Shown here one piece after another: positions 5,936-30,087 of a stretch of DNA of 30,445 nt. The position numbers and the translations under genes are program-made. Below the pieces are notes generated by a model. That model searched no databases. It was given only the letters and a program-made list of their open reading frames with translations, and had not been told where the DNA came from. The stretch is from positions 1 through 30,445 of the IMG/VR virus record IMGVR_UViG_3300022927_000081, one strand, 5' to 3'. Within the stretch, counting starts at the first letter, position 1, and each line of letters starts with the position of its first letter. The DNA is from a virus.

Positions 5936-7356
5936 TGTCCTTACTTGCTTTATCAGGAACTAACTCAGCAGTTGCTGGTGGGTATGATATTGCAAACTCT
6001 TGTAAGTTTGAAGATGATAATGATGAATGGCTTTATAGAGCAAATGTTTCAGGAACAAATACGAAAACTTGGACTGTAAGTTGGTGGTTTAAACAAACAG
6101 AACTTCGTTCCGTAATGGGTACAGCTACAAATCATTGGACGGGTGGGGCTTATGGTGAAGCAACAAGAGCAGGAGTAGATGAGTATGATAGATTGTGGAT
6201 AGATGTAGGTGGTGGCGATGGTAATCCCGGAAGTCGTTTTAGAAGCCTATCTACAGCAAGATTAAGAGATACCGCAGCTTGGTATCATGTTGTTATAGCT
6301 TGTGATAGTACACAAAGCACCGAAGCTGATAGATTAAAAGTTTGGTTAAACGGTGTAGAAGTAACAGTATGGGATCAACACCAAATTCCTACTCTAAATT
6401 TTGGAAGTGCTCTTGCAGGTTTTGCTGGAATACAAATGAAGTGGGGTTCAACCGATGCTACTTATAGCGGATATTCAGGCTATCTTGCAGAATGTAACTA
6501 TCTTGATGGTGTAACAGCAACACAAAATGATTTTGGTGAGTTTGATGAGGATAGCGGTATTTGGAAACCAAAAGAATATACAGGTTCTTATGGCACGAAT
6601 GGCACTTATTTAGACTTTACTAATGCTTCAGACTTAGGTGATGATAAAAGTGGTAATGGTAATGATTACACCCTAAACAACATCACATCCGCAGACCAAG
6701 CAACTGACACACCTACTAATAGTTTTTGTACGCTTAATCCTTTAATGGCTAATGCTGGTCCAGCAAATTATTTACCAATAACTGAAGGTGGAATTAAAGC
6801 TGTAAATACTGCTGCTGCATATAAAATTGCTAACTCAACTTTTGGTGTTACATCAGGTAAATGGTATTGGGAAGTTAAGGCAACAGATGTAAATGGAGTA
6901 ACAGCAATAGGTGTTACCATGCCATATTTCTGGGATGCTGATTATACATTACAAGGTTGTATTTATTATGCTCAAGGTCCTCAAAGATATAATAATGCAA
7001 GTGCTTCTAGCTTTGGAAGTGGTTATACAGATGGAGATATAATTTCATTTGCTTTAGATATGGATGCAACTCCACCCACTATGGAAGTTTATAAAAACAA
7101 TGTTAGTGAAGGCAATTTAATGGCAGGACTTACTATTAATGGAACAGGTGCTGCATTTTTACCTGAAAAAGAAGATGGTTATTTTCCAAAGGTTGTAGGC
7201 TATAACGCAAATACTTTTGAATGTAATTTTGGTGGCTTTACAACTTTTTCAATCTCAAGTGCAGAAAGTGATGAAAATGGCTACGGAACCTTTGAATATG
7301 CACCACCATCAGGCTACTACGCCTTATGCACTAAAAACTTAGCGGAGTACGGATAA
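5935..7356 (+). CDS. Lectin-like protein with LamG/ConA-like and SPRY-like domains
   Basis: 473 residues; ATG overlaps the upstream stop. Residues ~15-190 (SCKFEDDNDEWLYRANV ... WTVSWWFKQTE ... WYHVVIACDSTQ ... LKVWLNGVEV) match the concanavalin A-like/laminin-G fold used for carbohydrate binding. Residues ~285-445 (SGKWYWEVKATDVNGVTAIGV, DGDIISFALDMDATPPTMEVYKN in part, YFPKVVGYN) have the order of strands of a SPRY-like beta-sandwich. The end, GYGTFEYAPPSGYYALCTKNL, is a common ending in marine phage fibre clusters. Likely a virion-borne glycan-binding protein. Domain calls are from visible motifs only. Confidence 0.65.
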   Translation: MSLLALSGTNSAVAGGYDIANSCKFEDDNDEWLYRANVSGTNTKTWTVSWWFKQTELRSVMGTATNHWTGGAYGEATRAGVDEYDRLWIDVGGGDGNPGSRFRSLSTARLRDTAAWYHVVIACDSTQSTEADRLKVWLNGVEVTVWDQHQIPTLNFGSALAGFAGIQMKWGSTDATYSGYSGYLAECNYLDGVTATQNDFGEFDEDSGIWKPKEYTGSYGTNGTYLDFTNASDLGDDKSGNGNDYTLNNITSADQATDTPTNSFCTLNPLMANAGPANYLPITEGGIKAVNTAAAYKIANSTFGVTSGKWYWEVKATDVNGVTAIGVTMPYFWDADYTLQGCIYYAQGPQRYNNASASSFGSGYTDGDIISFALDMDATPPTMEVYKNNVSEGNLMAGLTINGTGAAFLPEKEDGYFPKVVGYNANTFECNFGGFTTFSISSAESDENGYGTFEYAPPSGYYALCTKNLAEYG

Positions 7357-8429
7357 TGGCTTATACAACAATAGACGACCCATCTGCACATTTTCAGACT
7401 GTTCTTTGGACTGGTGATGGTCTTGATAATAAACAAATTACCAACGATGGTAATTCTGATTTACAACCTGACTGGGTTTGGTTAAAAGATAGAACACAAG
7501 CAGAAAGCCATGCTGTCTTTGATAGCACTAGAGGTGCAACTGTAAGATTACAACCTAATTCTACTGGTGCTGAATCTACCGAAACTGCAACATTAAAATC
7601 TTTTACAACTGATGGCTTTACTGTTGGAACAAGTGGCTCTGTTAATAATGGCTCAAATCCTGACCAATATGTAGCATGGCAATGGAAAGCTAATGGCGGT
7701 ACGACTAGCACAAATACAGATGGTTCTGTTAATACCACAGTACAAACCAATACTGATGCTGGGTTTAGCATTGTTGGTTATACCTGCCCTGACCCTATAA
7801 CTAATTTTACAATAGGGCATGGTTTGGGTGTAACTCCTGATATGTTTATTATTAAAACTAGGGATGGCTCAAGAAACTGGGCTGTATACCATAAAAGTTT
7901 AACTGCACCTGCTGCAAAGCGTAATTTAAGATTAAATCAATCAAATGCAGAAGCAACAGAAAGCACTTTTTGGGCTAACATAGCACCAACAAGTTCAGTT
8001 ATACAACTCGCACAAAATGCTGCTGTAAATTATCAGGGGCATAATTATATAGCCTACTGTTTTGCAGAAAAACAAGGCTACAGCAAGTTTGGCAAGTATG
8101 TCGGTAATGGAAATGCAAATGGTACATTCGTCTATACAGGCTTCAAACCTGCTTGGGTAGTGGTGAAACAAAGTAATACATCTAGAAATTGGCAAATTTT
8201 TGATAATAAAAGAGACGGATATAACAAAGACTATATGCCAAGATTAAAGGCAGATACTGCTGATGCAGAGACCGCAAATTCTGGAGCTAGTATGGATTTT
8301 GTAAGCAATGGTTTTAAAATACGAACAGACCAAACAGGAGCAAATCAATCAGGCGGTACATACATCTACATGGCATTTGCAGAAAATCCATTCACAACAT
8401 CAACAGGTATACCAACAACAGCAAGATAA
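7356..8429 (+). CDS. Fibre-cluster protein with duplicated beta module (DUF7483-like)
   Basis: 357 residues; TAATG coupling with the lectin-like gene. Two similar modules can be seen: QPDWVWLKDRTQAESHAVFD early and KPAWVVVKQSNTSRNWQIFD late, with a third variant TPDMFIIKTRDGSRNWAVYH between. Each is followed by a region ending in W/Y-A or IYMAFAE. This W-V/I-K-x-R-x-x-x-x-W pattern is characteristic of phage fibre proteins that I believe are catalogued as DUF7483; that name is from memory. The C-terminus IYMAFAENPF is typical of the family. Probably another surface-binding component of the adhesion array. Confidence 0.6.
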   Translation: MAYTTIDDPSAHFQTVLWTGDGLDNKQITNDGNSDLQPDWVWLKDRTQAESHAVFDSTRGATVRLQPNSTGAESTETATLKSFTTDGFTVGTSGSVNNGSNPDQYVAWQWKANGGTTSTNTDGSVNTTVQTNTDAGFSIVGYTCPDPITNFTIGHGLGVTPDMFIIKTRDGSRNWAVYHKSLTAPAAKRNLRLNQSNAEATESTFWANIAPTSSVIQLAQNAAVNYQGHNYIAYCFAEKQGYSKFGKYVGNGNANGTFVYTGFKPAWVVVKQSNTSRNWQIFDNKRDGYNKDYMPRLKADTADAETANSGASMDFVSNGFKIRTDQTGANQSGGTYIYMAFAENPFTTSTGIPTTAR

Positions 8430-9510: not shown

Positions 9511-9788
9511 AAGAGCTATTAAGTGTTGTAGAGACTATAGGTATCCCAGCAGCAGTAGCTGTAGGAATGGGATATCTTGTTTGGACGCTTTTTAAAAATC
9601 TTATAGCTGACATCCATAAAAAATTAGATACTCAACATAGCATGATTGTTGCCTTAATAGATAGAATAAGGCAGATGGATAATGATATGATAAGGATTGA
9701 TACTTTAGTCAGAACAGCACTAAAGTTACCACCCGATGTAGATAGGATCTCACGGGCAGATGGGAAGAAAGATCAGAGAAAAGATTAA
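9507..9788 (+). CDS. One-TM small membrane protein downstream of holin
   Basis: 93 residues, with a GTG start overlapping the holin stop (GTGA). A hydrophobic segment near the N-terminus (~10-29, TIGIPAAVAVGMGYLVWTLF) is followed by an amphipathic helix (KNLIADIHKKLDTQH ... RIRQMDNDMIRIDTLV) and a charged Lys/Asp tail. The layout (short N-terminus, one TM, long helix) fits an accessory lysis protein such as an antiholin or inner-membrane spanin-like factor, but no lipobox partner is seen. The stop overlaps the next ATG (TAATG). Role inferred from position next to the holin. Confidence 0.5.
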   Translation: MKELLSVVETIGIPAAVAVGMGYLVWTLFKNLIADIHKKLDTQHSMIVALIDRIRQMDNDMIRIDTLVRTALKLPPDVDRISRADGKKDQRKD

Positions 9789-11470
9789 TGGCAGGTTTTA
9801 AATTACAAACATTTACCGGACTTAACGAAAAGCTAAGCCCTAGACTTTTGCCAGAAGATGTTGCTCAAGATGCACAGAATGTTTTTCTTGATCGTGGAAG
9901 GCTAGAAGCACTGCCGCAAGACACCAACGATGCATCTGAAACCGGACCAACACATCCAGCCAGTCACATTGGGTCAACAACAAAAACAATATTTAAAGCA
10001 ACCAACGCCGAGTGGTTTACCTTCAACGACGAGGTAGATGTAATTAAAAGCCCGATAAAAGAAGATGTTCATGGACGTTTTTATTTTACTGGCATCGGAG
10101 GAGGCTCTGGATTCCCCAGAATGGTGGATGCAACCAACGGAATATCAGGTGCTGGACCTTATCCAACAACAACATATAGATTAGGGTTGCCAACCCCACC
10201 AGCATTTACCACTGGTCCCAGTGTAAACAATGCTACAGCAGCAGCAGGTGCAACAGAATCATCAAGGGCTTATGTGTATACAGAGATCACCGCATTCGGG
10301 GAAGAAGGACCACCAAGTACAGTTGCAACAAGCGATATTGTAGATGCCGCAAATGGAGCTACAGTCACACTATCTTTACCAGCAGCAACAAGTGGTACAT
10401 ACAATATTTCTAAAAGAAGAATTTATAGAACAGACCTCAATGGTATATTTAGATTTGTTAAAGATGTATCTGGAACATCGTCAGGGACAACAACAGAAGC
10501 TGTTCTGGACGCCTCTCTCGGGGAAGAAATAGAATCGGTCGACAATCTAGCACCGCCAGATGACACCTCTTCATTACACCCAGATGGACCTATGCTTGGC
10601 ATCACAACAATGCCTAACGGAATTACAGCAGGCTTTAGTGGTAACACATTATTATTTAGTGAGGCTTTCTTGCCACACTCATACCCACTTTCAAACCAAA
10701 TAACAACCAAAGATGACATAGTTGGAATAGCATCTATTGCCTCGGGCTTGTTAGTCACAACAAAAGGTAAGCCCTTATTAGTGTCAGGTACAGATCCTTC
10801 AGCCATGGCTATGGTTGAGATAGATGCGAATCTACCAAATAGTAATAAGCGTTCACTTGTTGACATGGGAGAGTATGCTATTTATTCCTCCCCCGACGGA
10901 CTCGTGCTTATGTCAAACTCAGGCATTAACCTTGTTACCGAACAAATATTTACCAGAGATCAATGGCAGGACTATTACCCGTCTAACGTAGAGGGCTATG
11001 AGTACGAAGGCAAATACCTAGGCTTTACATGGGACGGCTCTGACTCAAGCACCAAGAAAGGATTTATCTTTGATCCAAGGGGAGGAAAGAACGCATTTGT
11101 TAATTTAGATTTTTATGCACACGCAGGCTTCAACGACAGAGAGGAGGACGAACTATATTTAGTTATTGACGGTACCCTTAAAAAGTTTGGCAGATCTGCA
11201 AGCAAAAGAACATACTCATGGAAGTCTAAAGAGTTTTACTCAAACAGACCTATATCGCCGGGTGTAGCGAAAGTAAGTGCTGACTCTTATAGCAGCCTTA
11301 CATTTAAGCTATATGCAGACGGATCTTTAAAACACACACAGACCGTTACTAACAACAATATATTTAGATTACCCGGAGGCTATCAAGCAAAAGCCTTTCA
11401 TATCATCCTTGAAGGAACAGACGCTGTGAACGAAGTCTGTGTATATGAAAGCCCACAGGAGATTACCTGA
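9788..11470 (+). CDS. Tail nozzle/hub-like virion protein
   Basis: 560 residues. The opening, FTGLNEKLSPRLLPEDVAQDAQNV with FLDRGRLEALP, has the G-x-N ... LP-x-x-A-x-x-A-x-N-V ... G-L pattern of phage virion proteins that form the lower tail of short-tailed phages (P22 gp10-like or nozzle-like). Residues ~140-260 contain a fibronectin-III-like segment (YVYTEITAFGEEGPPS; RRIYRTDLNGIFRFV). The remaining half is beta-rich and resembles propeller blades (AGFSGNTLLFSEAF, YAIYSSPDGLVLMS, YLGFTWDG). No catalytic motif. Likely builds the distal tail tube or nozzle. A siphovirus baseplate protein is the main alternative. Confidence 0.5.
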   Translation: MAGFKLQTFTGLNEKLSPRLLPEDVAQDAQNVFLDRGRLEALPQDTNDASETGPTHPASHIGSTTKTIFKATNAEWFTFNDEVDVIKSPIKEDVHGRFYFTGIGGGSGFPRMVDATNGISGAGPYPTTTYRLGLPTPPAFTTGPSVNNATAAAGATESSRAYVYTEITAFGEEGPPSTVATSDIVDAANGATVTLSLPAATSGTYNISKRRIYRTDLNGIFRFVKDVSGTSSGTTTEAVLDASLGEEIESVDNLAPPDDTSSLHPDGPMLGITTMPNGITAGFSGNTLLFSEAFLPHSYPLSNQITTKDDIVGIASIASGLLVTTKGKPLLVSGTDPSAMAMVEIDANLPNSNKRSLVDMGEYAIYSSPDGLVLMSNSGINLVTEQIFTRDQWQDYYPSNVEGYEYEGKYLGFTWDGSDSSTKKGFIFDPRGGKNAFVNLDFYAHAGFNDREEDELYLVIDGTLKKFGRSASKRTYSWKSKEFYSNRPISPGVAKVSADSYSSLTFKLYADGSLKHTQTVTNNNIFRLPGGYQAKAFHIILEGTDAVNEVCVYESPQEIT

Positions 11471-15569: not shown

Positions 15570-17165
15570 ATGTCATTTGCAGACGGACTAGAGAGCGGAA
15601 TTAATTTAAGTCTTAAGATTTCTGCCTTACAATTACAGAAAGAACAAGAAGAAAGGCTTAGAGATAAAGCCACATTAGATGCAATTACTGCACAGTCAAC
15701 AATTCAAAAAAATCTTTTAGAGGCTGAAAAAACTCAAGCAGAAATCCAAGATTTAAATTATAAAAATACTGCCCAGTACAGAGCGAGAGAAGAAGCCGTT
15801 GTTGAATCAACAATTAATTGGCGTGATGCTGTAACATCAGATATTAAACAAAGCACCGAAGAGGCTGCAAAAATTGCACAACGAAATGACGACGTAGAAG
15901 ACTGGAATCTTACTACTGAGTTTTTATCAAGTGCTATGCGTTGGTCAAAAGACCCGCAGCTAGTTGAGCTTAGGCAGTCTAACGCACCTGAGTGGCAGGC
16001 TTGGCAAAATAACTCATTAAAAATTATTAATAGGCTTCAAGAAAATGGAAGCGACATACCTGAATATTTTAATCCTAGGTATGCACAGGCTCAGGCAAGA
16101 CTGGCAGAAGTATTAGAACCAACAAACCCAGAGCTTAATTTAGAGACAATAGATCTTGGTGACTATGCGGAAGATATTAGTGCAGTATTTAGACCAAAGC
16201 TTTCAGCGTATTTAGGCAAGCAATATAAAGACGATAAGGGTAACGAGGGAGAGATCACAGACATAAGAATGACTGGTGCCTTTGAATCTATAGAGGGTGG
16301 CAAGAAGTCATTGATAGGTACTCAATATACTATCTTAACCCCGTCAGGCGAAACCAAAACAGTAGAAGGTTTTTTACCCGATAGATCACAAAAAGTTATA
16401 AGAGGTGATATTGAAAAATCAGACGCAGTAGCCGTGTCAACAGCGGACCTTATTGATCAGGTATCTGCTGGCAGACATTTGCTTGGCACCGCCTTAGATA
16501 ACCCAAGCATGATTCAAATTATGCAGGAAATAAACAGCATTAACTCAGCCAAATATTTTCCACCAGATCAAAAGTTTGAAGGTTTGATATTAGAAACCGC
16601 AGAAGAACTAAGAGATCAAAGCAATCTTGATATAGAAGACAAAAAAGTAAAGCTCGGAATCGGAAGATTTTCTAGACTTCCCTTTGACAGCACAGATAAA
16701 GCAGATATGGAAACAGTTGATTCTGGTCTTAGATCTTTATCTCAAGGATTTGATGGTTTTGGAGATTATCTAAATAAAAAAACTATTGATGGCAAAACAT
16801 ACCTCACTCTTCCTCAAGGCGAAACTATTGATGGAATTATTAATAAAACAAAACTTACTGTAGAGGAATCATTAAGACAGGCTAGGTCTGCAACAAGAAT
16901 ACCTTCTGGGAGTGCGGCGTCTGGTGTTAGATCTAAAAAATCATATGATTTCACAGTTGGCAACCAACCATTAGCAATTAACAGAAATGAACCACAAGCC
17001 AGTTATTTGCCAAAACTTAAACAAGCTTATGGCAATGATGTTATTGATAACGCAATTACTGATATTCAAAACGAGCTTTCACAAACTTATTCTGGCGATG
17101 TAACAGACAATGACTTTGCCTTATTAAGCGAACTTTATTACTACCTAGGAACAAGGAGAAGATAG
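15570..17165 (+). CDS. Candidate ejection protein with coiled-coil N-terminus
   Basis: 531 residues. A long N-terminal coiled coil (~20-75; LQLQKEQEERLRDKATLDA, NLLEAEKTQAEIQDLNYK) is followed by a mixed helical region (~85-180, DVEDWNLTTEFLSSAMRW) and a beta-containing segment (~205-290, GKQYKDDKGNEGEITDIR, YTILTPSGETKTVEGF). The C-terminal half is helical with a Ser/Gly linker (RIPSGSAASGVRSK). It directly precedes the giant polyvalent gene, the place that T7 gp15-like ejection proteins occupy. Function is inferred. No Shine-Dalgarno is obvious before the ATG, which lies three bases after the preceding stop. Confidence 0.5.
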   Translation: MSFADGLESGINLSLKISALQLQKEQEERLRDKATLDAITAQSTIQKNLLEAEKTQAEIQDLNYKNTAQYRAREEAVVESTINWRDAVTSDIKQSTEEAAKIAQRNDDVEDWNLTTEFLSSAMRWSKDPQLVELRQSNAPEWQAWQNNSLKIINRLQENGSDIPEYFNPRYAQAQARLAEVLEPTNPELNLETIDLGDYAEDISAVFRPKLSAYLGKQYKDDKGNEGEITDIRMTGAFESIEGGKKSLIGTQYTILTPSGETKTVEGFLPDRSQKVIRGDIEKSDAVAVSTADLIDQVSAGRHLLGTALDNPSMIQIMQEINSINSAKYFPPDQKFEGLILETAEELRDQSNLDIEDKKVKLGIGRFSRLPFDSTDKADMETVDSGLRSLSQGFDGFGDYLNKKTIDGKTYLTLPQGETIDGIINKTKLTVEESLRQARSATRIPSGSAASGVRSKKSYDFTVGNQPLAINRNEPQASYLPKLKQAYGNDVIDNAITDIQNELSQTYSGDVTDNDFALLSELYYYLGTRRR

Positions 17166-17166
17166 T

Positions 17167-20100
17167 GTGGCAAAGAAACCTATATCTGAATATGAGCCAA
17201 GATTCCCAGAGGAAGAGGTAGAAGAAGAACTACAGCCGATAGAAGAGCCCGAGGTTAGTCTTAAGCCAATATCTGAATATGTTCCTCGGGAAGAAGAGCT
17301 AGAGCCAACCACATCTGATATTGCTTTTGGAACTAAAGCACCAACATTAAACTATAGAACGGGCGAGCTTACTTTCCAAGATGAGGAAGGTAACGAAAAA
17401 AAAGATCTTGTAGATATTCCCAAGTTTTCTGATTTTATTTCTAGTGTATATTCTGGCACAAAAGATTTTTTATCTGGTATACCAGTTGGTGCACAAGCAG
17501 CCCTTCCCGGTTTCTTGCAGGGATTTAACGGAATTAAAAGAAAAGCAGTAGAGTCTTATTTTTCTGAACTAAAGGGTGAGAGACCGGCTTCTTGGGTTAC
17601 AGATAACCCAATGCTGTTTGCCGACGCATCGATCATCACAATGCAACAAACAGGTGAGTTGCAAAAATATGATTCAAACCCTGAATATCAACAACAAATT
17701 AAAAATGATTTGCTTACGTTTCTCGGGGAAAATGAAAAAGAATATACAAGGCTACAAAAAAAATTAGATAAAATTTATAAAGACGCAGATCTTGGTGATA
17801 TAGGTACAGCCGCAGCACAGGGATTTCAAAGTTTTATTCAACAAGCACCTGTGCTTTTATATGCTGGCTATACAAAAAATCCATATGTTGCATATTCAAT
17901 GCTGCCAATGTTTGCAGTACAAGAATCTGGTCGATCCTATCAACAGGCAAGAATGGAGGGATTGTCAATTGATGCAGCCAGCTTAAATGCAAACATAAAT
18001 GGCACGTTAGAATTTATTACAGAGGCAGTGCCAACAAAAAAACTATCTGATCTATTTACAAAATCATATAAAAAGAACGAGAGCGTTTATAAAAGTTTAG
18101 CCAGAGATGGGTTCAATGTGACTCTTAATGAGTTCGGTTGGGAAACTGTAAACGGTGTTGCACAAGAGCTAAACAACACAGCCTTTGGTCTACAGACACA
18201 ATTAAGGGAAGTCAGAGAAGCGTCAAAAGACCCTTTGTACACAGGACCAAGAGAAATAGATGTTTTTAGAGACATTGCTTTTAATTCTTTCTTTGCTTCT
18301 TTAGCGGGAAGTGGGTCTGCAATTACTGCAAGAGGAGTTTTTGAATTAGCACCAGAAGTAAAACAATCTTTATTAGAGCTTGATCCAAATAAAGCACGTG
18401 TGCTTGCTAGGGAATTGGAAACAGCCGTAAAAAATGCAGACTTCCTTGGTCAGGCAATAGACCAAACAACTCTTGATATATTAAACACGGGTATAGATGG
18501 TACAACCCCGCTAGACCCTGAAGACTTTTTAACAAATAACTATTTAAACTATCAGCTTGGTGAGGTCGTACAGCTACCACCAGAGCCAGAGATAGACGAA
18601 CTAGATGTCATGAGACAAAGAAAGTCTGCTGGAGAAATAGTAAGACCGCAAGACCTAGAGGCTGCACAAAAGGTTTTTAGTCCTACAACCACAGAGATAG
18701 ATGAGGATGTTTCTCCGGAAGTTAGAGAGACCACAGAAGATTTATTAAATGATATAGAAATATCAGAACTTGACGGTAAGATAAATCCAATAAGTTTCCA
18801 AGAAATAAACCCACAAGAGAAAGATGCTATTAAATCTAACATAGTAAATTCTAGAAGATTCAATATGGATGACTTTTTGGTTGAGGGCTTTACCGAACAA
18901 GACATGGACGACTACACCTCAAGACTTAGGGACTTTAACGAGGTTGAGTCAGACAACTTATCCACATCTATAGCGGTTCTTAATCAGGCAGGGATGCCTT
19001 TTGAAATAATAGAAGACATCACATTCTTTGGAATGATTGGTAACGACGAGCGTTCAGGAAAAGCAGTTAGCACACCGTATGCTGTATATAATCCAGCTTT
19101 TAGAAATGTAGGTTTTACAAAACTTTCGGGAATTTCTTATGACGCTGACACCGCAAGAAAAACCCTTGTCGGCTTATCAACCCACAACCTTAATACAACA
19201 GCAGCTCTTGCTCATGAGCTAGGTCACCACATAGATTATGGTTTCTTTGATTACGGAGAATCTGCACACTTTGACAGTCCTCTGTTTGAAATTCCAGAAT
19301 ATGAAATAGCAACCTCATTGGCTGACGAAATTGAAAAAGTACCAACCAGATTTAAGCAGCGAACATACAACGATGCTGGGTTTAGACAAAGAAATCCAGA
19401 GCTTGTCATTAAGTCTGGTACCAAGGGTCCAATTATTAGAGAAGCCTTTGCAATTCTTAATAACGAAAACCTAACACGCATGAATCTAAAAAAAGAAGAT
19501 GGTGTTTATTTTGAAGGACGTTTACTTGAGTACCCAATGAGCTCTTATATTTCTACCATGCATGCGATAGCACAAGGAGCAGATCCTGCGGTAGCACAAA
19601 GACAACTTAGATTTATTAAGGGTGAGATTTTTGCACAAATGCACAACCTGTATTACACTAACAGGAGTCTACTAGAGCAATATGCACCAGAGACAGTTAA
19701 ACTTATTGATAGGGTAAACAATGAAATTTCAGTTGACGGATTTGGAAACAAAAGCAGCGGAATACTTCGTGCGTTTCGGTCACCCCGTGCCCCTAGAAGT
19801 GTATCGGTTTCAGCCGAAAGAACAGACACAACAACAGATAGAACTATCCCTTCAGAAGGACCAGCCGGTGGAGAGCTGGCAGCAGAGGTCCCAACAGAAG
19901 GACGGGACGATATACGACCTCCAGTACGAACAAGGGTCGGAACAACAGGTCAATATGTAGGAGCACCCGAGGGTGTCACAACTCCCCAAGCTCTTGGGGC
20001 TTTAAGAAGAAAAATAGCAGGACTTACTCAAGAGGGTGAAGCTGGTAGATTTTGGTATGAACAAAGCGGTCAAGCTCTACTCGATGTAACAAACGGCGAT

Positions 20101-23100
20101 AAAAAAGAAGCAGATCTTTTAGCACAAGCTATAGCCATCACATCTCCCGGTACACCAGTAAGCACAAATATGGTTTATGCAATACAAGCCTACAATCAAT
20201 ATAAGGCTGGCAGACCAATTAACACTGGTAGATTCCCACAATCAATGAACAAAAAGTTAGAAGATATTTTTTCGGGAAAAGATTGGGGCGGTAGAAAAAC
20301 AAATAGTTTTTATGCAAACATTATAGGATTTATTGATCCAACAAAAGAGCAAGCTGTTACTACAGACCTTTGGATGGTAAGAGCCTTTGGATATAAAACA
20401 GAAGCACCATCTCCAAGACAATATGATTTTGTAGAACAAGAGGTGCAAAGAATTGCAAACGATCTTGGATGGGAACCAAGGCAGGTACAGGCAGCTATAT
20501 GGGTTGCTAAAAAATCACAGGACGAAGGAACCTCACCGGAGGTTTCTAAATATGATTACAGTGATGCGTTAAAAGAAAACCTTGCACAAATTAGCTGGGA
20601 GTCTAAACCCGGAGATACAACCAACCACATGCCAGAGGTAAAAGATGCAACCTATGAACAACTACAAGAATATCATGTAGCAGTATCTAAAGCTTTTCTT
20701 GATCAAGACGGCAACGACATTATTGCAAAAGAACTTGACTTATTAACTCCCGGTAACTTTGAAGCACCGGGATATTTTGAGCAGGCTGTAAGCCCGGGAA
20801 CACAAACCGAAGCCGTGCTTGCTAAAAAATACAAAGCACAAAAAGATGAAATAACAGCATTAGATCCAGCATCGCAAGATTTAGCAGAAGCATATGCAGC
20901 TGTTGTTGGTATTTTATTAAAACAAGATGGTGTTGGTTATCATAAACCTTTCTTTCAAAAGAACATTGCAAAGAAAGACTTAAATGGTTTTGAAATAAAT
21001 ATTGGCAGACCACTGTCCCAACAAGAGACTGTTGCTGTTGCTGAAGCAATTGCACAAGAGTCAGGCAATACAGAATATAATCCTATTGCATCTCCAAGGG
21101 GAGCAAGAATAATTAACTTTGATTATGTTGGAATTGACAACATCAAGTTTAGGTCAATTGTTGAACGAGCACTAAATAGTGTACAATTTGATAATAACGA
21201 AGATGTTAGGCTGACACACTTTGCAGCTAACACTGGTTACCTAGGAAACAACTGGGAGGTTGACAAAAATGGCGAAGGTTACTTACGAGATAGCAGACGA
21301 ATTTCACCCGATCTTCAAGGAAGGGTTGAAAGTCTCATCAGGAAAATCCAACCGAGAATTCAAGAAGTTGATCAAGACTTCTCAGAGCGATATGGATGGA
21401 CAAGAAATGAATCCATCAACACCAACTACAGACTCAGACCAGAAGACCTAGACGCAGAATCCAGAGCAGCAGTATTTGAGGGCAACAGGCTTGTTGAACC
21501 AGCCTATGTTGATTTTCCAATGCAAGCAATTAAAAATATTCAACAAAGGTCTTATAAAATTTATCCAACTCTTTTTCCCAAGGCTTACGACTCAGAAGAG
21601 GACCTAAAAAAAACAAGAGATTGGATTGATGAAAACAATATAAATCCATATAGGTCTGGTGATGTAGTGTTTGGAAGCCCGCAAGTAGTAAGTGATTTTA
21701 TTATTAGAATGCCCATTAACGATTTTCTAAAATTAACAACAACAACAGATGAACAAATTGAAAACATTAAGCTAAGGGGTCCGGCGTACAGTCTCCGTAG
21801 ACCAAGAAAAGAAGAAGATGGTGTGTTTAAGGAAGATGTATCTTTTAGATTTGACCCCGCTGAAATGGATGAAAACCCATCACGAACAATAGCAACATTT
21901 CTTGCTATAGACCCAGATGGTAAGGTGATTGGTCATGAGGGTAGACATAGATCAGCCTTAGCTCTACAAGACGGAGCACAAACAATTCCAGTAAATATAC
22001 AAATAGGCTATAACACAGAGAGCAGAGCTGCCTTTGAATCTATTGCAGAAAAAATGTTCAAAGAAACAGGGGATATTCCAAGAACATTGAAAGACTATGG
22101 AATTGATATTTTTAAACCTCAGTCTTTTTCGGGGCTTGAAGCAAGAAAAAACTATGAGTTTGATACTAACAACTATGAGTCAGCAGCAATTATAGGAGAC
22201 GGACAAGCAGCCCTTGATGTTGCTCAAGGACAAGATACCCCGGGAGTCATGAAGCCCGAAGATTCGGATATGCTTATGGAAGTCCCACCAGAGAAAGGAA
22301 GCAAACCACCACCATCAGACCCAAACCAAAATAGACAATTTACTTTAATGGATGAGAACTGGTTTGAAAATAAGTTTAGAAACTTTAAAGTAAATATTGT
22401 TAATAACTTTGACCCGGCTTTTACTGTAGAAAATACAATTAAATCTCAGTTCGGACCCGAGGCAATCGAGGGAAAAAGAATAACTGACGAAACAGATTTA
22501 TATCACGGCAAAGTAAAAACTGGTGTAGAGAAGTTTGAAAGACAGGCTGAAACTTTAATTAAGTTTATTGTTGATAACGGATACACAATAGATCAATACA
22601 ATAAGTTTATATACAACCTACATGCACCCGAAAGAAATGAATATATAAATAGCCTTAGAGAACCCGGACAACCCGGATCTGTTAAATATAAAGACAGAGG
22701 ATCTGGAATTAAAACAGAGGATGCTATTAAGTATTTAAAAAGAAACGGTGTTATATACAAAGACGGAAAAGCAAGAGCGGTTGCTGCCAAAGGTAAAATA
22801 TTAATGGAGGCTTACAACAAATACCATAAGCCAATTATAGATAACACAATAAAGCTTTATAAAGACAATGGTCTTGTTGATCAAGAGAACCTTGCAGACT
22901 GGAAGGATAGATATGACTATTATGTCCCGCTTGCCGGTTTTGCAGCAGACACACTTAAGAAAGGATCTTCTCCATCTAGTAAGGGCAATGGTTCTATATC
23001 TCAAGCCTTCTCTGTATCCGGTGCTGAAGTTAAAAGAGCTAAAGGAAGAACATCACAGGCTGACTTTGCATTAGAGCAAACTTTAGGCAGGGCATCAGCC

Positions 23101-25275
23101 GCCGTTATTAGATCAGAAAAAAATAATATTGTTACCAAGCTAGCAAACTTAGCAAGAGAATTTCCTAACGCAGATGTATGGGAAGTTAAGGGTAAGAATA
23201 AATTTATGGCAGCCAAGCCACAATGGGATGGTCAGAAAGCTATATTCTCATTTAAAGAAGATGGTAAAGAAAAGGTTGTTATTATTAGAAACGAGAGACT
23301 TGCTAAAGGTATGGCTGGATGGGACACAGATACAAGCGGCAGAATAATGAGTACCGTTGCAAGTGTGACCAGAGGTCTTGCTATGGTAAACACCGTATTA
23401 GATCCAGAGTTTATGATTACAAACTTTGCTCGTGACTTTCAAGCTGCCGGTTTAAATTTGGCAGCCGAGCAAGAGCTTGTTGGTGGAAGAGCTGAAGGTC
23501 TTAAAATCCTAGAAGAAAAGTTTGGATTTAGAAGCGTATTTAAAAACATGGGCGTTTTAAAACGTGGAGAAACTTTTAAAGAGATGAGTGCGGAAGATCA
23601 AAAATATTATGATGCATTTAAAGAGTCTGGAGCCGAGACAGGATATGTGGTGCCACCAACTATTGAAAAGATACAGAGTGATCTTAACAACATGGCAGAT
23701 ATGTACAAAGGAACATTTAAAGGCAATGCTAAAAAAGCCATACAATCAGTTTATAAGCCAATTGAAATAGCTAACACTGTTGTTGAAAACGGCACTAGGT
23801 TTACTGCCTTCAGATCAGCCATAGAATTACAAGGTGGCATTGATAATGTAACCCCGGAACAAATTAAGAAAGCCGCAATATTGGCAAAGAATTTAACTAT
23901 TAACTTTAATAGAAAAGGAATACAAGGCAATGGTCTTAATGCAATGTATATGTTCTTTAATGCGTCAGTTCAGGGCTCTGTTAATTTCTTTAGAGGTTAT
24001 GGTCCCGGTGGAGTATCACAAAGAAAACTAAAACTTGCAGGTGGATTGGTATCTATAGGATTTATTTCAACCCTTTATAACTTAATGTCTTCACCAGAAG
24101 ATGAAGATGGAATGTTGATATATCAAAAATATCCAGATTATAAAAAGAAAACAAACTATTTAATTATGTTAGCAACGCCTGAAATTAATTTTAAAGATGG
24201 TGAATTATCTTTTGAAAGAAAAGATTCTACAGAGGTAGTTAACTTTAATGGTAAACCAGTTGCGGTTACTATACCTTTGCCCTATGGGTTTAATGTTTTT
24301 CATAATCTTGGTCGCACAATGGCTGAGCTTATGTACACAAATTCAGTAGAGGGAAGTAACATAACGTCGCTAGAGAACGCAGCTGTAGAGCTTGCTGATG
24401 TAATGACAGGATCATTCTCACCAATAGGCATTGCAGAAACCAAAGAAAAAGGCTTTGGATCTATTTTTCCTAAAGCATTAAAAACAGGAACGCCGACTAT
24501 CGCTAAACCAATAGTAGAACTCTCAATGAATGAAAATTGGTTTGGTGCTCCAATATATCCAGAACAATTCCCGGGAGATTACACACCAAAATCTAAACTT
24601 AGAAAAAGATCTGATAATGAGTGGATAGCTGCCGTAACAAGTTTTATGAATGATGTTACTGGGGGCAATGACTATTATGCCGGTCAGGTAGATCTGTCAC
24701 CACAAACCATAGGTTACTTAGTTGCATATGGCACAGGCGGTATTGGTAGGACCATTGGTAGATCAAGTCAGCTGGTTGTAGATGGTGCTAAAGAAATAGC
24801 CGAAAGAGGTTTTGGTGAGGGTCAGGGTGCTATAAGAACAAGAGAACTTAATCAAATACCTTTTGTTAGAAGATTGTTAGCCGTCCCTGAAGACCATGTA
24901 ACAAGCAGATTATTTTACGATGCGGTGGTTGATGTTGAATCTTACTCTCAAAACTATTTAAGAAATGAACAAGATCCGAACGTGTCAGTGGAAGACACAA
25001 ATAAAATTTATAATGCGAGACCAAACCTTCTTGACTTATCTGACACCATTCCATTGTCAGCCAAAGCTGATCGTGCAGAAGTTGTTTCTGAAAAAGAAAG
25101 CAGTTTAAAAATTATTAAAAATTTACGCAAAGAAATGATGGACAATGAAGAATATAAAAAATCTAATCCAAGGTTTTATTATAAAGAACAGGAAAGAATT
25201 GAAGATGAGATACTCGCAGAAATGAAAGTTTTTATTAGATCTTATAACGCAGCAATAGCAAAAGATAAAAAGTAA
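17167..25275 (+). CDS. Giant polyvalent ejection protein (zincin, ParB-like, LPD38-like)
   Basis: 2702 residues from GTG with aaggag upstream. In order: acidic N-terminus with KPISEYxPR twice (4-12, 33-41); helical, partly hydrophobic region (~95-420); metallopeptidase-like domain with HELGH at 683-687 and possible third zinc ligand Glu820 (KGEIFAQ); disordered linker (~855-935); domain with TTDLWMVRAFG and LGWEPRQVQAAIW (~940-1160; resembles the phage-polyvalent domain I know as DUF7178); alpha/beta region; ParB-like segment (~1505-1640) with GHEGRHR at 1589-1595; and from ~1725 a C-terminal LPD38-like region with DPEFMITNFARDFQ (from 2079) and a hydrophobic helix near 2294. Such proteins are packaged and injected with DNA to open the envelope and act in the cell. 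No transglycosylase motif is evident. Confidence 0.75.
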   Translation: MAKKPISEYEPRFPEEEVEEELQPIEEPEVSLKPISEYVPREEELEPTTSDIAFGTKAPTLNYRTGELTFQDEEGNEKKDLVDIPKFSDFISSVYSGTKDFLSGIPVGAQAALPGFLQGFNGIKRKAVESYFSELKGERPASWVTDNPMLFADASIITMQQTGELQKYDSNPEYQQQIKNDLLTFLGENEKEYTRLQKKLDKIYKDADLGDIGTAAAQGFQSFIQQAPVLLYAGYTKNPYVAYSMLPMFAVQESGRSYQQARMEGLSIDAASLNANINGTLEFITEAVPTKKLSDLFTKSYKKNESVYKSLARDGFNVTLNEFGWETVNGVAQELNNTAFGLQTQLREVREASKDPLYTGPREIDVFRDIAFNSFFASLAGSGSAITARGVFELAPEVKQSLLELDPNKARVLARELETAVKNADFLGQAIDQTTLDILNTGIDGTTPLDPEDFLTNNYLNYQLGEVVQLPPEPEIDELDVMRQRKSAGEIVRPQDLEAAQKVFSPTTTEIDEDVSPEVRETTEDLLNDIEISELDGKINPISFQEINPQEKDAIKSNIVNSRRFNMDDFLVEGFTEQDMDDYTSRLRDFNEVESDNLSTSIAVLNQAGMPFEIIEDITFFGMIGNDERSGKAVSTPYAVYNPAFRNVGFTKLSGISYDADTARKTLVGLSTHNLNTTAALAHELGHHIDYGFFDYGESAHFDSPLFEIPEYEIATSLADEIEKVPTRFKQRTYNDAGFRQRNPELVIKSGTKGPIIREAFAILNNENLTRMNLKKEDGVYFEGRLLEYPMSSYISTMHAIAQGADPAVAQRQLRFIKGEIFAQMHNLYYTNRSLLEQYAPETVKLIDRVNNEISVDGFGNKSSGILRAFRSPRAPRSVSVSAERTDTTTDRTIPSEGPAGGELAAEVPTEGRDDIRPPVRTRVGTTGQYVGAPEGVTTPQALGALRRKIAGLTQEGEAGRFWYEQSGQALLDVTNGDKKEADLLAQAIAITSPGTPVSTNMVYAIQAYNQYKAGRPINTGRFPQSMNKKLEDIFSGKDWGGRKTNSFYANIIGFIDPTKEQAVTTDLWMVRAFGYKTEAPSPRQYDFVEQEVQRIANDLGWEPRQVQAAIWVAKKSQDEGTSPEVSKYDYSDALKENLAQISWESKPGDTTNHMPEVKDATYEQLQEYHVAVSKAFLDQDGNDIIAKELDLLTPGNFEAPGYFEQAVSPGTQTEAVLAKKYKAQKDEITALDPASQDLAEAYAAVVGILLKQDGVGYHKPFFQKNIAKKDLNGFEINIGRPLSQQETVAVAEAIAQESGNTEYNPIASPRGARIINFDYVGIDNIKFRSIVERALNSVQFDNNEDVRLTHFAANTGYLGNNWEVDKNGEGYLRDSRRISPDLQGRVESLIRKIQPRIQEVDQDFSERYGWTRNESINTNYRLRPEDLDAESRAAVFEGNRLVEPAYVDFPMQAIKNIQQRSYKIYPTLFPKAYDSEEDLKKTRDWIDENNINPYRSGDVVFGSPQVVSDFIIRMPINDFLKLTTTTDEQIENIKLRGPAYSLRRPRKEEDGVFKEDVSFRFDPAEMDENPSRTIATFLAIDPDGKVIGHEGRHRSALALQDGAQTIPVNIQIGYNTESRAAFESIAEKMFKETGDIPRTLKDYGIDIFKPQSFSGLEARKNYEFDTNNYESAAIIGDGQAALDVAQGQDTPGVMKPEDSDMLMEVPPEKGSKPPPSDPNQNRQFTLMDENWFENKFRNFKVNIVNNFDPAFTVENTIKSQFGPEAIEGKRITDETDLYHGKVKTGVEKFERQAETLIKFIVDNGYTIDQYNKFIYNLHAPERNEYINSLREPGQPGSVKYKDRGSGIKTEDAIKYLKRNGVIYKDGKARAVAAKGKILMEAYNKYHKPIIDNTIKLYKDNGLVDQENLADWKDRYDYYVPLAGFAADTLKKGSSPSSKGNGSISQAFSVSGAEVKRAKGRTSQADFALEQTLGRASAAVIRSEKNNIVTKLANLAREFPNADVWEVKGKNKFMAAKPQWDGQKAIFSFKEDGKEKVVIIRNERLAKGMAGWDTDTSGRIMSTVASVTRGLAMVNTVLDPEFMITNFARDFQAAGLNLAAEQELVGGRAEGLKILEEKFGFRSVFKNMGVLKRGETFKEMSAEDQKYYDAFKESGAETGYVVPPTIEKIQSDLNNMADMYKGTFKGNAKKAIQSVYKPIEIANTVVENGTRFTAFRSAIELQGGIDNVTPEQIKKAAILAKNLTINFNRKGIQGNGLNAMYMFFNASVQGSVNFFRGYGPGGVSQRKLKLAGGLVSIGFISTLYNLMSSPEDEDGMLIYQKYPDYKKKTNYLIMLATPEINFKDGELSFERKDSTEVVNFNGKPVAVTIPLPYGFNVFHNLGRTMAELMYTNSVEGSNITSLENAAVELADVMTGSFSPIGIAETKEKGFGSIFPKALKTGTPTIAKPIVELSMNENWFGAPIYPEQFPGDYTPKSKLRKRSDNEWIAAVTSFMNDVTGGNDYYAGQVDLSPQTIGYLVAYGTGGIGRTIGRSSQLVVDGAKEIAERGFGEGQGAIRTRELNQIPFVRRLLAVPEDHVTSRLFYDAVVDVESYSQNYLRNEQDPNVSVEDTNKIYNARPNLLDLSDTIPLSAKADRAEVVSEKESSLKIIKNLRKEMMDNEEYKKSNPRFYYKEQERIEDEILAEMKVFIRSYNAAIAKDKK
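19721..19960 (+). CDS. Candidate nested gene in another frame inside the giant gene
   Basis: 79 codons, ATG preceded by ataggg with six bases spacing, ending TAG. It lies in the +1-shifted frame exactly over the low-complexity linker of the giant protein. The product looks protein-like: LTDLETKAAEYFVRFGHPVP, then LEVYRFQPKEQ, a Gln-rich helix, and PVESWQQRSQQKDGTIYDLQ. The giant frame here uses Arg codons CGT, CGG and CGA that are scarce elsewhere in this gene. Against it: third-position AT bias favours the giant frame, and chance open frames of 60-75 codons are common in this window. Treat as a hypothesis. Confidence 0.3.
   Translation: MKFQLTDLETKAAEYFVRFGHPVPLEVYRFQPKEQTQQQIELSLQKDQPVESWQQRSQQKDGTIYDLQYEQGSEQQVNM
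21269..21451 (+). CDS. Second candidate nested gene inside the giant gene
   Basis: 60 codons in the shifted frame, ATG preceded by GGGAGG with nine bases spacing, a better ribosome site than many accepted genes here. The product begins MAKVTYEIADEFHPIFKEGL and continues with a Lys-rich helix (SNREFKKLIKT) and a polar tail. The main frame over the same bases (LQGRVESLIRKIQPRIQEVD) also looks like a real helix, so both frames could be functional or this could be chance. No function can be named. Confidence 0.28.
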   Translation: MAKVTYEIADEFHPIFKEGLKVSSGKSNREFKKLIKTSQSDMDGQEMNPSTPTTDSDQKT

Positions 25276-25315: not shown

Positions 25316-25372
25316 ATGATTAACTGGCAGCCCCGCAAGAAGGTATCAAACCTCAAGATATCAAAGATATAG
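25316..25372 (+). CDS. Tiny 18-codon reading frame at the end of the late block
   Basis: ATG at 25316 with a strong G-rich ribosome-binding site (aaaaagggggg, spacing four). The peptide is MINWQPRKKVSNLKISKI, basic with one Trp, ending TAG. It lies 40 bases past the giant gene on the same strand and its last 20 bases overlap the 3' end of the convergent integrase gene. The leader ggggggttatatg is nearly the same as the leaders of the 88-residue gene and of the helix-turn-helix gene, which supports real translation. Function unknown. Confidence 0.4.
   Translation: MINWQPRKKVSNLKISKI
25341..25372. other. Repeat-rich stretch at integrase 3' end, possible attP region
   Basis: Two copies of TATCAAA (25344-25350 and 25359-25365) lie 15 bases apart around the integrase stop codon, with AGATATC between. 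Attachment sites of temperate phages often lie next to the integrase gene, so this short repeat-rich stretch is a candidate arm or core site. No tRNA-like 3' end is recognisable, so the call is weak. Confidence 0.18.
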
Positions 25373-26153
25373 TATTCTCACAAGCCTCATTAAGATAATC
25401 TTTCGACAGGTGAGCATACCTATTTACAATATTAAAGTCGGACCACCCACCAAGATGTTGCAGAGTATGTAAGGGAGTACCATTCTGCACATGATGAGTA
25501 GCCCATGTATGTCTAATGTCGTGCCACCTGAAGCCCTCTAAGCCACACTTTTTAAGTGCCTTATACCATCCAGTGTTTGACGTTCTTGTAAGCTTCCTAC
25601 CAGCGTATGTGAAGACGTAGGGACCAATTTGTTTTATGTTGTTCAACAACTCTTGTGCATCTTTATTTAAAGGCACCGCAAGAGATCTCCCGTTCTTGGT
25701 CTCGTCTGCATGAATGGATACCCATCCATCCTGTATATCTTCCCACTTCAGGTTTAGGCAGTTGGACATCCTGACACCAGTCATAAGGGAGAAAACAAAC
25801 ACAGGTTTGAGGTGCTCAGGCAAAGCCTCGTGCAACCTAGCACACTCTTCAAGCGTAAAGAACTTCACCCTCTTGGATGACTCTTTTACTCTTTTAAGAG
25901 TTGGCTTTGTGTCCAACCAGCCTAAATCTTCGTAGCAGTAATTAAGAACTGCTCTTAAAAAGTTTATGTATCTATTGACAGTACCGGGAGATTTTTTTAT
26001 CCCCGCCCTAGCGTTGGCTAGATCTTCTTTAGATAACTTATTAATATTCTTTTTACCAAAACACTTAGTAAAATATTTTATGTAAGTGGGATCGTTCTTC
26101 CCGGGATTCTTAACCTCATAATATCTTTGTACGGCTTCATTAAAATCTTTCAT
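25353..26153 (-). CDS. int: Tyrosine-type site-specific integrase
   Basis: 266 residues. Residues ~1-90 form a helical core-binding domain (TYIKYFTKCFGKKNINKLS, TVNRYINFLRAVLNYCYED). The catalytic domain has the full set: Arg128 in TGVRMSN, Lys153 in DETKNG, His211-x-x-Arg214 in WHDIRHTWATH, Trp237 in LGGWSD (the usual His/Trp place) and Tyr246 in RYAHLS, the nucleophile. It cuts and rejoins DNA through a 3'-phosphotyrosine to insert the phage at attB. It lacks a long arm-binding N-terminal domain, so it is on the short side. Its start overlaps the stop of the small basic gene (ATGA), placing it last in the promoter-led operon from 26768. Active residues all look intact. Confidence 0.93.
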   Translation of the reverse strand: MKDFNEAVQRYYEVKNPGKNDPTYIKYFTKCFGKKNINKLSKEDLANARAGIKKSPGTVNRYINFLRAVLNYCYEDLGWLDTKPTLKRVKESSKRVKFFTLEECARLHEALPEHLKPVFVFSLMTGVRMSNCLNLKWEDIQDGWVSIHADETKNGRSLAVPLNKDAQELLNNIKQIGPYVFTYAGRKLTRTSNTGWYKALKKCGLEGFRWHDIRHTWATHHVQNGTPLHTLQHLGGWSDFNIVNRYAHLSKDYLNEACENTISLIS

Positions 26154-28352: not shown

Positions 28353-28521
28353 TGGCTTCTACCTCCTTTTGGTACCAATCTTCTAAAATTTTAGCAACCT
28401 TGTAAGACATGCCTCTGTCATAGAACCTATGTCCTTCTTGGTTACTAACCCTTTCAAGATAATCATGAACATCATGATTAACTCTCGAACTCACTGATTT
28501 TTTTGGATTTAAATCATCCAT
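28342..28521 (-). CDS. Ribbon-helix-helix-like small protein
   Basis: 59 residues starting at 28521, chosen over the upstream in-frame ATG at 28611 because ggagg lies directly before it and the longer version would overlap the exonuclease gene by almost 100 bases. The sequence KKSVSSRVNHDVHDYLERVS has the strand followed by helix of the Arc/CopG ribbon-helix-helix fold, and SYKVAKILEDWYQKE supplies the second helix. Such proteins bind DNA as dimers and often autoregulate. It overlaps the exonuclease stop by eight bases. It is the only visible regulator candidate in the window apart from the HTH gene; fold assignment is tentative. Confidence 0.5.
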   Translation of the reverse strand: MDDLNPKKSVSSRVNHDVHDYLERVSNQEGHRFYDRGMSYKVAKILEDWYQKEVEANGI

Positions 28522-29482
28522 TTTTGTCCTCCACAATTCTTGTGTAAATTCTAGTATCGCCCTCTGATCTATATCCCTCGACCTCGTGTACCGGAATATC
28601 TTTATCTTCAATCAATCTTTTATAATCAATCCTCCCGGTAGCTTGAGTTAAATGACATTTCACAGATGGGGTTCTAAAAGCTCCGTTGTTATCACTAATC
28701 AACCTTGCTGATATTTCTTTTTTATCAGCATCAAGCTCTTTAATTTTTTGCTGTAATATTTTAATTTCTAACATAACGCTTACTAATTTTTTAGTGTCTT
28801 CGTTATCGTCTACATCTTTATAAGGAACACCGGGTTCTTTATATTCAACAGACCAACGTGCAATATTCTCGGGGTCTTTTTTAGCAGTGCTATACCATTC
28901 AATAAACTCTTTTGCTTTTGGTAAATATATATTTGCCCAGTCGGGGTCTCTATCAACCCACTCAGAAACATGGTCACCAGTTTCATACCACTGAAAGAAA
29001 AGCATTTCATCTATGTCCATACACTCCATGCCAAGCTGCATCTGATGCCAGTAATTTCTTTTTTGTTTTTTAACATCCTTAACAGGTTTTGTTTGTGGAC
29101 ATTTAATTTCAACAGCAGCTGGTCCGCCTTTTCTACCTTTTAAAAGTATTCCATCCGGGCTCATTCCAAGCCAATCATGGTCGGGGTGTTTTACAAATGG
29201 TGAGTCTTGAATAACATAACCAAGGTCTGATAGGGTCTTGATTGCCTTGGGCTCATTCTCTTTTCCTCTTGTAATGGCAAACAATGCTCGAGAATCAAAG
29301 GGGCGTTGTGGTAGGTTATGCTCTTCTCTGAACATATCAATCGCTAGGTCCTCCCATTGATCTCCCTTAGCCCATATATCTTCCTTAACAGCACGTTGTA
29401 TTCTTGTGCCAGTAAGCTTTCCCATTCTTAAGGCAAACCATTCTTTGGTTCCTTGAACTATTTTTTTTGCTGGTTCGGTCAT
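28514..29482 (-). CDS. YqaJ/lambda-exonuclease-type recombination nuclease
   Basis: 322 residues; ATG overlaps the ERF stop (ATGA). Motifs run in the order of the YqaJ family: GTKEWFALRMGKLTGTR (residues ~11-27), RGKENEP (Glu77 region), GMSPDGIL with Asp110, AVEIKCP with Glu125 and Lys127 (catalytic D-ExK), and YWHQMQLGM (~144-152). The enzyme degrades one strand 5' to 3' from a double-strand end, making 3' overhangs for the annealase. The C-terminal ~110 residues add a coiled coil (MLEIKILQQKIKELDADKKE), longer than minimal lambda exonuclease (226). With ERF just upstream this is a Red-like recombination pair used in phage replication or repair. Confidence 0.88.
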   Translation of the reverse strand: MTEPAKKIVQGTKEWFALRMGKLTGTRIQRAVKEDIWAKGDQWEDLAIDMFREEHNLPQRPFDSRALFAITRGKENEPKAIKTLSDLGYVIQDSPFVKHPDHDWLGMSPDGILLKGRKGGPAAVEIKCPQTKPVKDVKKQKRNYWHQMQLGMECMDIDEMLFFQWYETGDHVSEWVDRDPDWANIYLPKAKEFIEWYSTAKKDPENIARWSVEYKEPGVPYKDVDDNEDTKKLVSVMLEIKILQQKIKELDADKKEISARLISDNNGAFRTPSVKCHLTQATGRIDYKRLIEDKDIPVHEVEGYRSEGDTRIYTRIVEDKNG

Positions 29483-30087
29483 TGTGCACCTGCCATTTTT
29501 GTATAGTGCAAGTTAATTTTCTCTCTTGCTTCTTTATCGCCAGCAAGTGTTGCTACCTTGTCGTAGTTCTTAAATATTTTTTCTTGCTGTGATTTATCTT
29601 TGCTTGCTGATATTTCACTTACAAACATGTCAAATATTTTTTCCTCTTCCGGCTCGCCCTCATCGCCAACCATTTCCGGTTCTACTGTTTGCTCAAATGG
29701 TACGCAGAAGAATTGAATCAGTGCATCACGATATGCAAAAGATTTTGCAGCCTCTAAGTCTCTGCCTTGAGTTGACTTGCTTTGTCCAACATATGCAGTG
29801 TCAACAAAAGATCCATCTTCTAAAGATAGAAATCTTAAGGTTCCTTTCAATAAGGAGTATGACGTTTTGCCGTCCTCGGACAGTCTTGTTCTTACCTTTA
29901 GATCGGGCAAGAAGTTTGTTGTTACCTTGTTCATCGCCAAGGGTTTAGCGAGCGACGCATAGACATCGTCTATACCTCTGTAGTTATATTTTGAGAAGCT
30001 ATTGTATTTAGATTTCTCGATTGGGTTTTCTAATAAGTACTCTTGTATGTTCGCAAGAGCATTAAATATTTTACTATTTTCTGACAT
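29479..30087 (-). CDS. erf: ERF-family single-strand annealing protein
   Basis: 202 residues, ATG with ggagg five bases upstream, first gene of the recombination operon. KYNSFSKYNYRGIDDVYASL (~27-46) followed by LAMNKVTTNFLPDL and, later, QGRDLEAAKSFAYRDALIQF (~107-126) are the conserved ERF blocks. The C-terminal part is acidic (EGEPEEEKIFDMF) and helical, where such proteins often contact ssDNA-binding partners. ERF proteins form rings on ssDNA and anneal complementary strands, working with the exonuclease encoded next. Leftward promoter lies just upstream. Confidence 0.88.
   Translation of the reverse strand: MSENSKIFNALANIQEYLLENPIEKSKYNSFSKYNYRGIDDVYASLAKPLAMNKVTTNFLPDLKVRTRLSEDGKTSYSLLKGTLRFLSLEDGSFVDTAYVGQSKSTQGRDLEAAKSFAYRDALIQFFCVPFEQTVEPEMVGDEGEPEEEKIFDMFVSEISASKDKSQQEKIFKNYDKVATLAGDKEAREKINLHYTKMAGAQ

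Follow-up and report, generated by a model that had tools for sequence, protein, structure and literature searches.

The window analysed here, 30,445 bases long, is the entire IMG/VR virus record IMGVR_UViG_3300022927_000081, from a phage known from environmental DNA alone. It encodes a giant protein, P0001, in a single open reading frame whose limits, given in an earlier note on this DNA, stand on re-examination, with a good ribosome-binding site upstream of the GTG start (Table 1). The gene lies in the late-gene region, adjoining virion genes. Directly before it is a gene for a 531-aa protein, and in phi296, Vibrio 252E42.2, and BcepMigl the giant likewise has a mid-size gene before it, a likeness of size and position; in BcepMigl this gene is annotated 'virion associated'. 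The window also encodes a 560-aa internal virion protein (phrog_511), and the phages possessing it are largely the same set as those possessing the C-terminal region of P0001, which we call the chassis. The presence of an integrase gene indicates that the phage is temperate.

Several other genes of the window could be assigned. Minus-strand genes for a YqaJ nuclease and an ERF annealing protein (28514-30087) make up a recombination module. At 743-3277 lies the gene of a tail fibre whose C-terminal domain is S74 (endosialidase chaperone), and at 7356-8429, amid the tail fibre genes, that of a full-length DUF7483 protein (E 2e-118).

An identical P0001 is present in one other record (L003, 100%), and further homologs show 96% (L001), 72-76% (L002, L004, and L010), and 36-40% identity (L013 and L036). 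Residues of the HELGH region and of GHEGRHR are kept down to 36-40% overall identity; because they are invariant across the compared homologs, the two motifs are not chance occurrences. Both motifs, and DPEFMITNFARDFQ from residue 2079, are located where the earlier note had placed them. Its list of domains was correct for these motifs and left two domains unnamed, LPD38 and DUF7178, and the most interesting part of P0001 is not the one that it flagged.

Table 1. Location of P0001, its domains and motifs, neighbouring genes, and related plasmid gene pairs
Feature	Position	Strand	Basis or remark
560-aa internal virion protein, phrog_511	9788..11470	+	PHROGs match
531-aa protein directly upstream of P0001	15570..17165	+	position, size
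Shine-Dalgarno AAGGAG	17153..17158	+	8 nt 5' of GTG; read directly from sequence
P0001, polyvalent, ejection-type protein	17167..25275	+	GTG start, 2702 aa
Acidic N-terminal tail, KPISEY twice (aa 4-9, 33-38)	17176..17280	+	candidate packaging signal by analogy
Helical N-terminal region, aa 90-560	17434..18846	+	model of 225-560 of low confidence; no family match
Zincin-like metallopeptidase region, aa 585-875	18919..19791	+	ATLF match, invariant residues
HELGH, aa 683-687	19213..19227	+	sequence, conservation
Glu820, proposed third zinc ligand	19624..19626	+	ATLF match, conservation
DUF7178, HhH-GPD/Ogg2-like DNA glycosylase domain (predicted), aa 925-1130	19939..20556	+	Pfam, model, structure and profile comparison
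Lys1044, in place of HhH-GPD lyase catalytic lysine	20296..20298	+	K in 27/27; aligned with Ogg2 Lys
Asp1067, in place of catalytic aspartate	20365..20367	+	D in 27/27; aligned with Ogg2 Asp
MID, aa 1131-1416, often after DUF7178	20557..21414	+	alpha/beta; model pLDDT about 85
Exchangeable cassette, ParB/sulfiredoxin-like (putative), aa 1427-1677	21445..22197	+	gap in L013, identity jump in L036, structural matches
GHEGRHR, aa 1589-1595	21931..21951	+	sequence, conservation
C-terminal chassis, aa 1735-2620	22369..25026	+	profile search
LPD38, aa 2319-2537, inside chassis	24121..24777	+	Pfam E 2.4e-32
Tyrosine integrase	25353..26153	-	Pfam E 2.5e-27
Plasmid methylase and Ogg2-like gene pairs	L081 1-1157, L082 1-1157, L084 1-1166, L085 1-1175

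Polyvalent identity, chassis and cargo

What kind of protein is P0001? The earlier description of a polyvalent protein, a type that is injected, is supported: LPD38 and DUF7178 both score above the Pfam cut-off, and the protein thus combines several domains, an LPD among them, with a late-gene setting. Profile searches with the chassis, roughly 880 residues long, matched giants in three phages: phi296 (2796 aa, E 9e-248), Vibrio 252E42.2 (3066 aa, 3e-237), and Burkholderia phage BcepMigl (4658 aa, DarB-like, E 9e-162). It is common to podoviruses of Stx-type, Vibrio, and Bcep22-like affiliation, and gene order around the giant is similar in these three phages and the window. The domains ahead of the chassis are different in each: phi296 has LPD5, LPD1, and MuF_C; Vibrio 252E42.2 has a weak methyltransferase-like match; BcepMigl has an SLT transglycosylase, an Eco57I-like methylase, an SNF2 helicase, and PBECR1; and P0001 has the protease, glycosylase-like, MID, and ParB-like parts. 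Direct comparison thus presents these giants as a conserved chassis with exchangeable cargo. The counterpart in the Bcep22-like phage JC1 is virion-associated, with 51 unique peptides detected by mass spectrometry (PMC9144972). By analogy, P0001 is probably carried in the particle and injected with the phage DNA.

In P1 DarB the packaging signal lies within the N-terminal 30 residues (PMC9024508). The acidic N-terminal tail of P0001 bears the repeated hexapeptide KPISEY, found in no other ORF of the window, and is by analogy a candidate packaging signal. Of the helical region that follows, residues 225-560 were modelled, modelling having begun at residue 225, with a pLDDT of about 25-60. Sequence searches of Pfam, PHROGs, and NCBIfam found no transglycosylase or lysozyme family anywhere in P0001, in agreement, at the level of sequence families, with the earlier remark that no lytic transglycosylase was visible. 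NCBIfam and PADLOC gave no match to P0001 of any kind, and nothing significant came from searching PDB sequences with P0001 in full or with profiles of DUF7178, ParB, and MID. The DarB-like giant of BcepMigl (L095 2739-16715) carries an N-terminal SLT transglycosylase (residues 79-178) and the chassis in common with P0001, from which it seems that the cell-wall module, too, is optional cargo.

Predicted protease, MID domain and exchangeable cassette

ATLF is the zincin family of anthrax lethal factor, and its Pfam model was matched consistently, below the cut-off, by 6/6 sequences of the protease region (best E 6e-4). The match falls at the C-terminal end of the profile, which in this family holds the third ligand, and so places Glu820 in the third-ligand helix. 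Across the seven sequences compared, H683, E684, H687, H688, D690, H701, E759, and E820 are invariant; E711 is invariant as well, and E711 and E759 are further candidates for the third ligand beside Glu820. The structure model, with a pLDDT of about 25-70 across residues 673-844, is too low in confidence for the geometry of the zinc site to be measured. The ATLF match and the invariance support a lethal-factor-like zincin in the HELGH region with Glu820 most likely its third ligand, and with it the metalloprotease proposed earlier. An Asp three residues past HExxH is a feature of one clade of phage polyvalent zincins (PMC5512222), and P0001 has it (D690).

The MID domain matched no sequence family. 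It follows DUF7178 in several distant giants (L021, L022, L024, L025, and L089-L091), and the best match of the model containing it among predicted viral proteins spans 505 columns at 51% identity. In fold comparison the phage SAM lyase 6znb scores Z 7.3 over 119/125 residues, tied with AcrB porter domains. Judged by eye, MID has no conserved Glu at the position expected from the SAM-lyase set (Gly56, Tyr58, Glu69, and Gln104), and a SAM lyase is a weak lead from the modelled fold. A first scan of genome contigs found no relative; a second identified three MAG contigs with the DUF7178 and MID unit. A contig binned as Rickettsiales (Tara Red Sea; L089 1-5217) encodes a protein with DUF7178, MID, and chassis that is 51% identical in the DUF7178 and MID unit. 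The binning is possibly a clue to the host, or the contig is mis-binned viral DNA.

The segment between MID and chassis behaves as a unit. In L013 a gap takes out residues 1427-1677 precisely; the sister sequence L036 has them, and in the other segments is 68-84% identical to L013. Between L036 and the window, identity is 67% in this segment versus 24-46% in other segments. Slow evolution was considered and ruled out: between L002 and L004, identity is 72% in the same segment, by far their most divergent, versus 97-99% elsewhere. Since slow evolution cannot account for the two patterns together and exchange between lineages can, sequence comparison shows residues 1427-1677 to be an optional cassette swapped between related phages. 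The earlier note had called this part ParB-like. Structural matches for residues 1484-1640 include sulfiredoxin (Z 4.4), ParB (3.9), and Osa (3.5), the most coherent family among the matches, at low Z (3-4.4) and a pLDDT of 45-70. E1591, R1593, H1594, and R1595 are identical in 6/6 sequences having the segment, as would befit a conserved-Arg pocket. No member of the alignment (A9) matched any Pfam ParB model, and the segment does not classify as a DdrB-like ParB. With its low Z, the ParB/sulfiredoxin-like fold, and with it the earlier assignment, is plausible but weak.

DUF7178, a glycosylase-like domain

The Pfam DUF7178 match covers residues 955-1116 (E 1e-14). The model of residues 925-1130 is confident, with pLDDT mostly above 80, and HhH-GPD enzymes fill the top seven rows of the structural comparison with VIA-align (Z 11.8-9.1), the eighth row dropping to 7.6. 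These are MjOgg (Z 11.8, rmsd 3.3, 166 aligned, and again at 11.3), TmOgg (11.8), SsOgg (11.5), D. radiodurans EndoIII-3 (9.9 and 9.5), and Pa-AGOG (9.1), with 166-172 residues aligned to enzymes of 206-208 residues. For helical domains a Z below about 13, as in the 11.8 obtained here, may reflect a common arrangement or coincidence, and Foldseek alone ranks glycosylases weakly (best E 0.8, prob 0.75); the other lines of evidence, profile comparison and invariance, therefore matter.

A two-sequence EndoIII/MutY template for profile comparison gave weak values (P 0.02-0.035) and was replaced by seven Ogg2-like plasmid proteins. With these, hhalign yields P 4.9e-5 (probability 68%), compared with 0.33-0.54 for control pairs (n=3), and pairs the Ogg2 catalytic Lys with K1044, the Asp with D1067, and the later QAAIW with DLLLW. 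The result is weaker, P 0.0025, when the DUF7178 alignment omits free-standing proteins. Y964, S993, K1044, F1048, and D1067 are invariant in 27/27 distinct DUF7178 domains, free-standing proteins included. The Lys-to-Asp spacing is 18 in MjOgg and in six DUF7178 domains, one of them free-standing, and 23 in that of the window. In some PDB Ogg2 chains, precisely the catalytic Lys and Asp positions carry residues other than those of related chains, which fits engineered active-site variants.

Neither PF00730, the HhH-GPD family model, nor PDB sequence searches matched the domain, and we therefore call it HhH-GPD-like, a distant branch and not a classified member. The HhH-GPD fold of DUF7178 is well supported, and the invariance suggests that the domain is catalytically active as a DNA glycosylase/AP lyase, with Lys1044 and Asp1067 as its active-site residues. 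DUF7178, a family so far without an assigned function, can thereby be tested as a predicted DNA glycosylase whose catalytic residues are specified, and a new kind of cargo is suggested for virion-delivered proteins. More than 20 different long phage proteins were seen to contain DUF7178, as were three free-standing phage proteins. Our literature search turned up no paper naming DUF7178 and none describing a glycosylase within a polyvalent protein, and the word glycosylase is absent from the main text of the polyvalent-protein paper of Iyer et al. 2017 (PMC5512222). Judged from the literature, a glycosylase-like domain in a polyvalent protein is not recognised before.

Two genomic settings of related proteins deserve mention. 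One free-standing DUF7178 protein, gp111 of Tunturiibacter phage Tunturi_3 (L087 4624-5498), is annotated 'portal protein', a probable misannotation, and its gene adjoins that of an ATP-dependent DNA ligase. On Pseudomonas, Citrobacter, and Synechocystis plasmids, a DNA adenine methylase gene is followed directly by that of an Ogg2-like 8-oxoguanine glycosylase, which abuts or overlaps it. The pair recurs and could form a modification-restriction-like unit; the two plasmid glycosylases tested have no model in PADLOC.

Proposed role at entry and comparison with known systems

Why would a phage inject such a protein? We propose that P0001 is a polyvalent virion protein of a temperate, short-tailed phage of the 933W/Bcep22 type. 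As its relatives suggest, the LPD38 chassis would hold it in the particle and then carry it into the cell with the DNA. The lethal-factor-like zincin, with HELGH and Glu820, would cut the chain into working pieces, at assembly or after entry, and the DUF7178 domain would excise bases as a glycosylase/AP lyase through its invariant Lys1044 and Asp1067. The ParB/sulfiredoxin-like cassette would probably serve as an NTP-linked nuclease or counter-defence part. The least certain step is the job itself: most likely the domain would act on the phage genome as it comes in, excising bases that are oxidised or altered in some other way. We consider this reading as a whole evenly poised between right and wrong. 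The wider proposition, that tailed phages pack an active base-excision enzyme into the particle, built as one module into an ejected protein that cleaves itself, with other modules such as the ParB cassette swapped between phages on one chassis, is more tentative, and we lean somewhat against it. If it is true, the tools for repair or base removal enter the cell together with the genome.

Could the glycosylase be a weapon instead? For counter-defence or superinfection it would remove a base, for example an epigenetic one, from host, plasmid, or competitor DNA and thereby create breaks or abasic sites, the ParB cassette acting as an accessory nuclease. DUF7178 is surrounded by conflict-type modules, polyvalent proteins have been interpreted as anti-defence tools (PMC5512222), and bacteria use glycosylases in the opposite direction, against phages (Brig1, PMC11078745). 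However, a temperate phage would harm itself by damaging host DNA indiscriminately, so the integrase argues for a target in the incoming genome or among particular altered bases, and the ligase gene adjoining the solo DUF7178 gene in Tunturi_3 fits repair. On these two grounds we consider the weapon unlikely and favour repair over host killing, the least certain of our preferences. Decidedly less probable is an HhH-GPD fold that only binds DNA, holding the giant on the genome during packaging or ejection. Likeness of fold is no proof of activity, and packaging of giants needs some interaction, but binding does not require the Lys and Asp that all 27 domains retain, the free-standing ones among them.

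The earlier note had supposed that the protease opens the envelope or degrades host proteins. The zincin signature is present, and zincins of polyvalent proteins are possibly effectors in some cases, but they are thought mainly to process their own chain (PMC5512222), which suits a protease lying inside a multi-module chain, and sequence searches found no peptidoglycan-acting domain in P0001, unlike the BcepMigl giant with its SLT. We regard this model as very improbable, and the opening of the envelope is not upheld. Smaller still is the chance that P0001 is never packaged and acts only in the infected cell after its synthesis there. Packaging in the window phage is indeed deduced from relatives; the late-gene position adjoining virion genes and the virion-associated JC1 counterpart both argue against such a protein. 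We therefore retain the virion-borne, self-processing protein with a base-excision domain as the preferred reading.

How does P0001 compare with known systems? T7 gp16, a large ejected protein of a short-tailed phage, carries a transglycosylase, whereas none was detected in P0001 by sequence search. The N4 virion RNA polymerase gp50, which is ejected and of giant size, has an HExxH domain and a C-terminal part that is large and helical (PMC12633501), and resembles the ejection-type P0001 in these respects; homology between the two is not convincing (P 0.04 for the C-terminal parts and 0.18 for the zincins), and P0001 has no RNA polymerase match. Among the Ogg2 8-oxoguanine DNA glycosylase/lyases (MjOgg, TmOgg, and SsOgg), the fold match extends over nearly the whole enzyme and the active-site Lys and Asp correspond, but DUF7178 is only about 11-13% identical, is missed by HhH-GPD sequence models, and is embedded in a giant phage protein. 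The giant of phi296, a Stx-type Traversvirus, has the closest annotated chassis, with a mid-size gene before it and an integrase gene after it as in the window, but differs in its cargo and is without DUF7178. The DarB-like giants gp69 of BcepMigl and gp69 of JC1 share chassis and position with P0001, and that of BcepMigl differs by its cargo. P0001 falls among the phage polyvalent proteins of Iyer et al. (2017), which like it are giant, multi-module products of late genes with zincin and LPD38 parts and, as is plausible for P0001, a ParB-like part, and to which it adds an HhH-GPD glycosylase-like domain.
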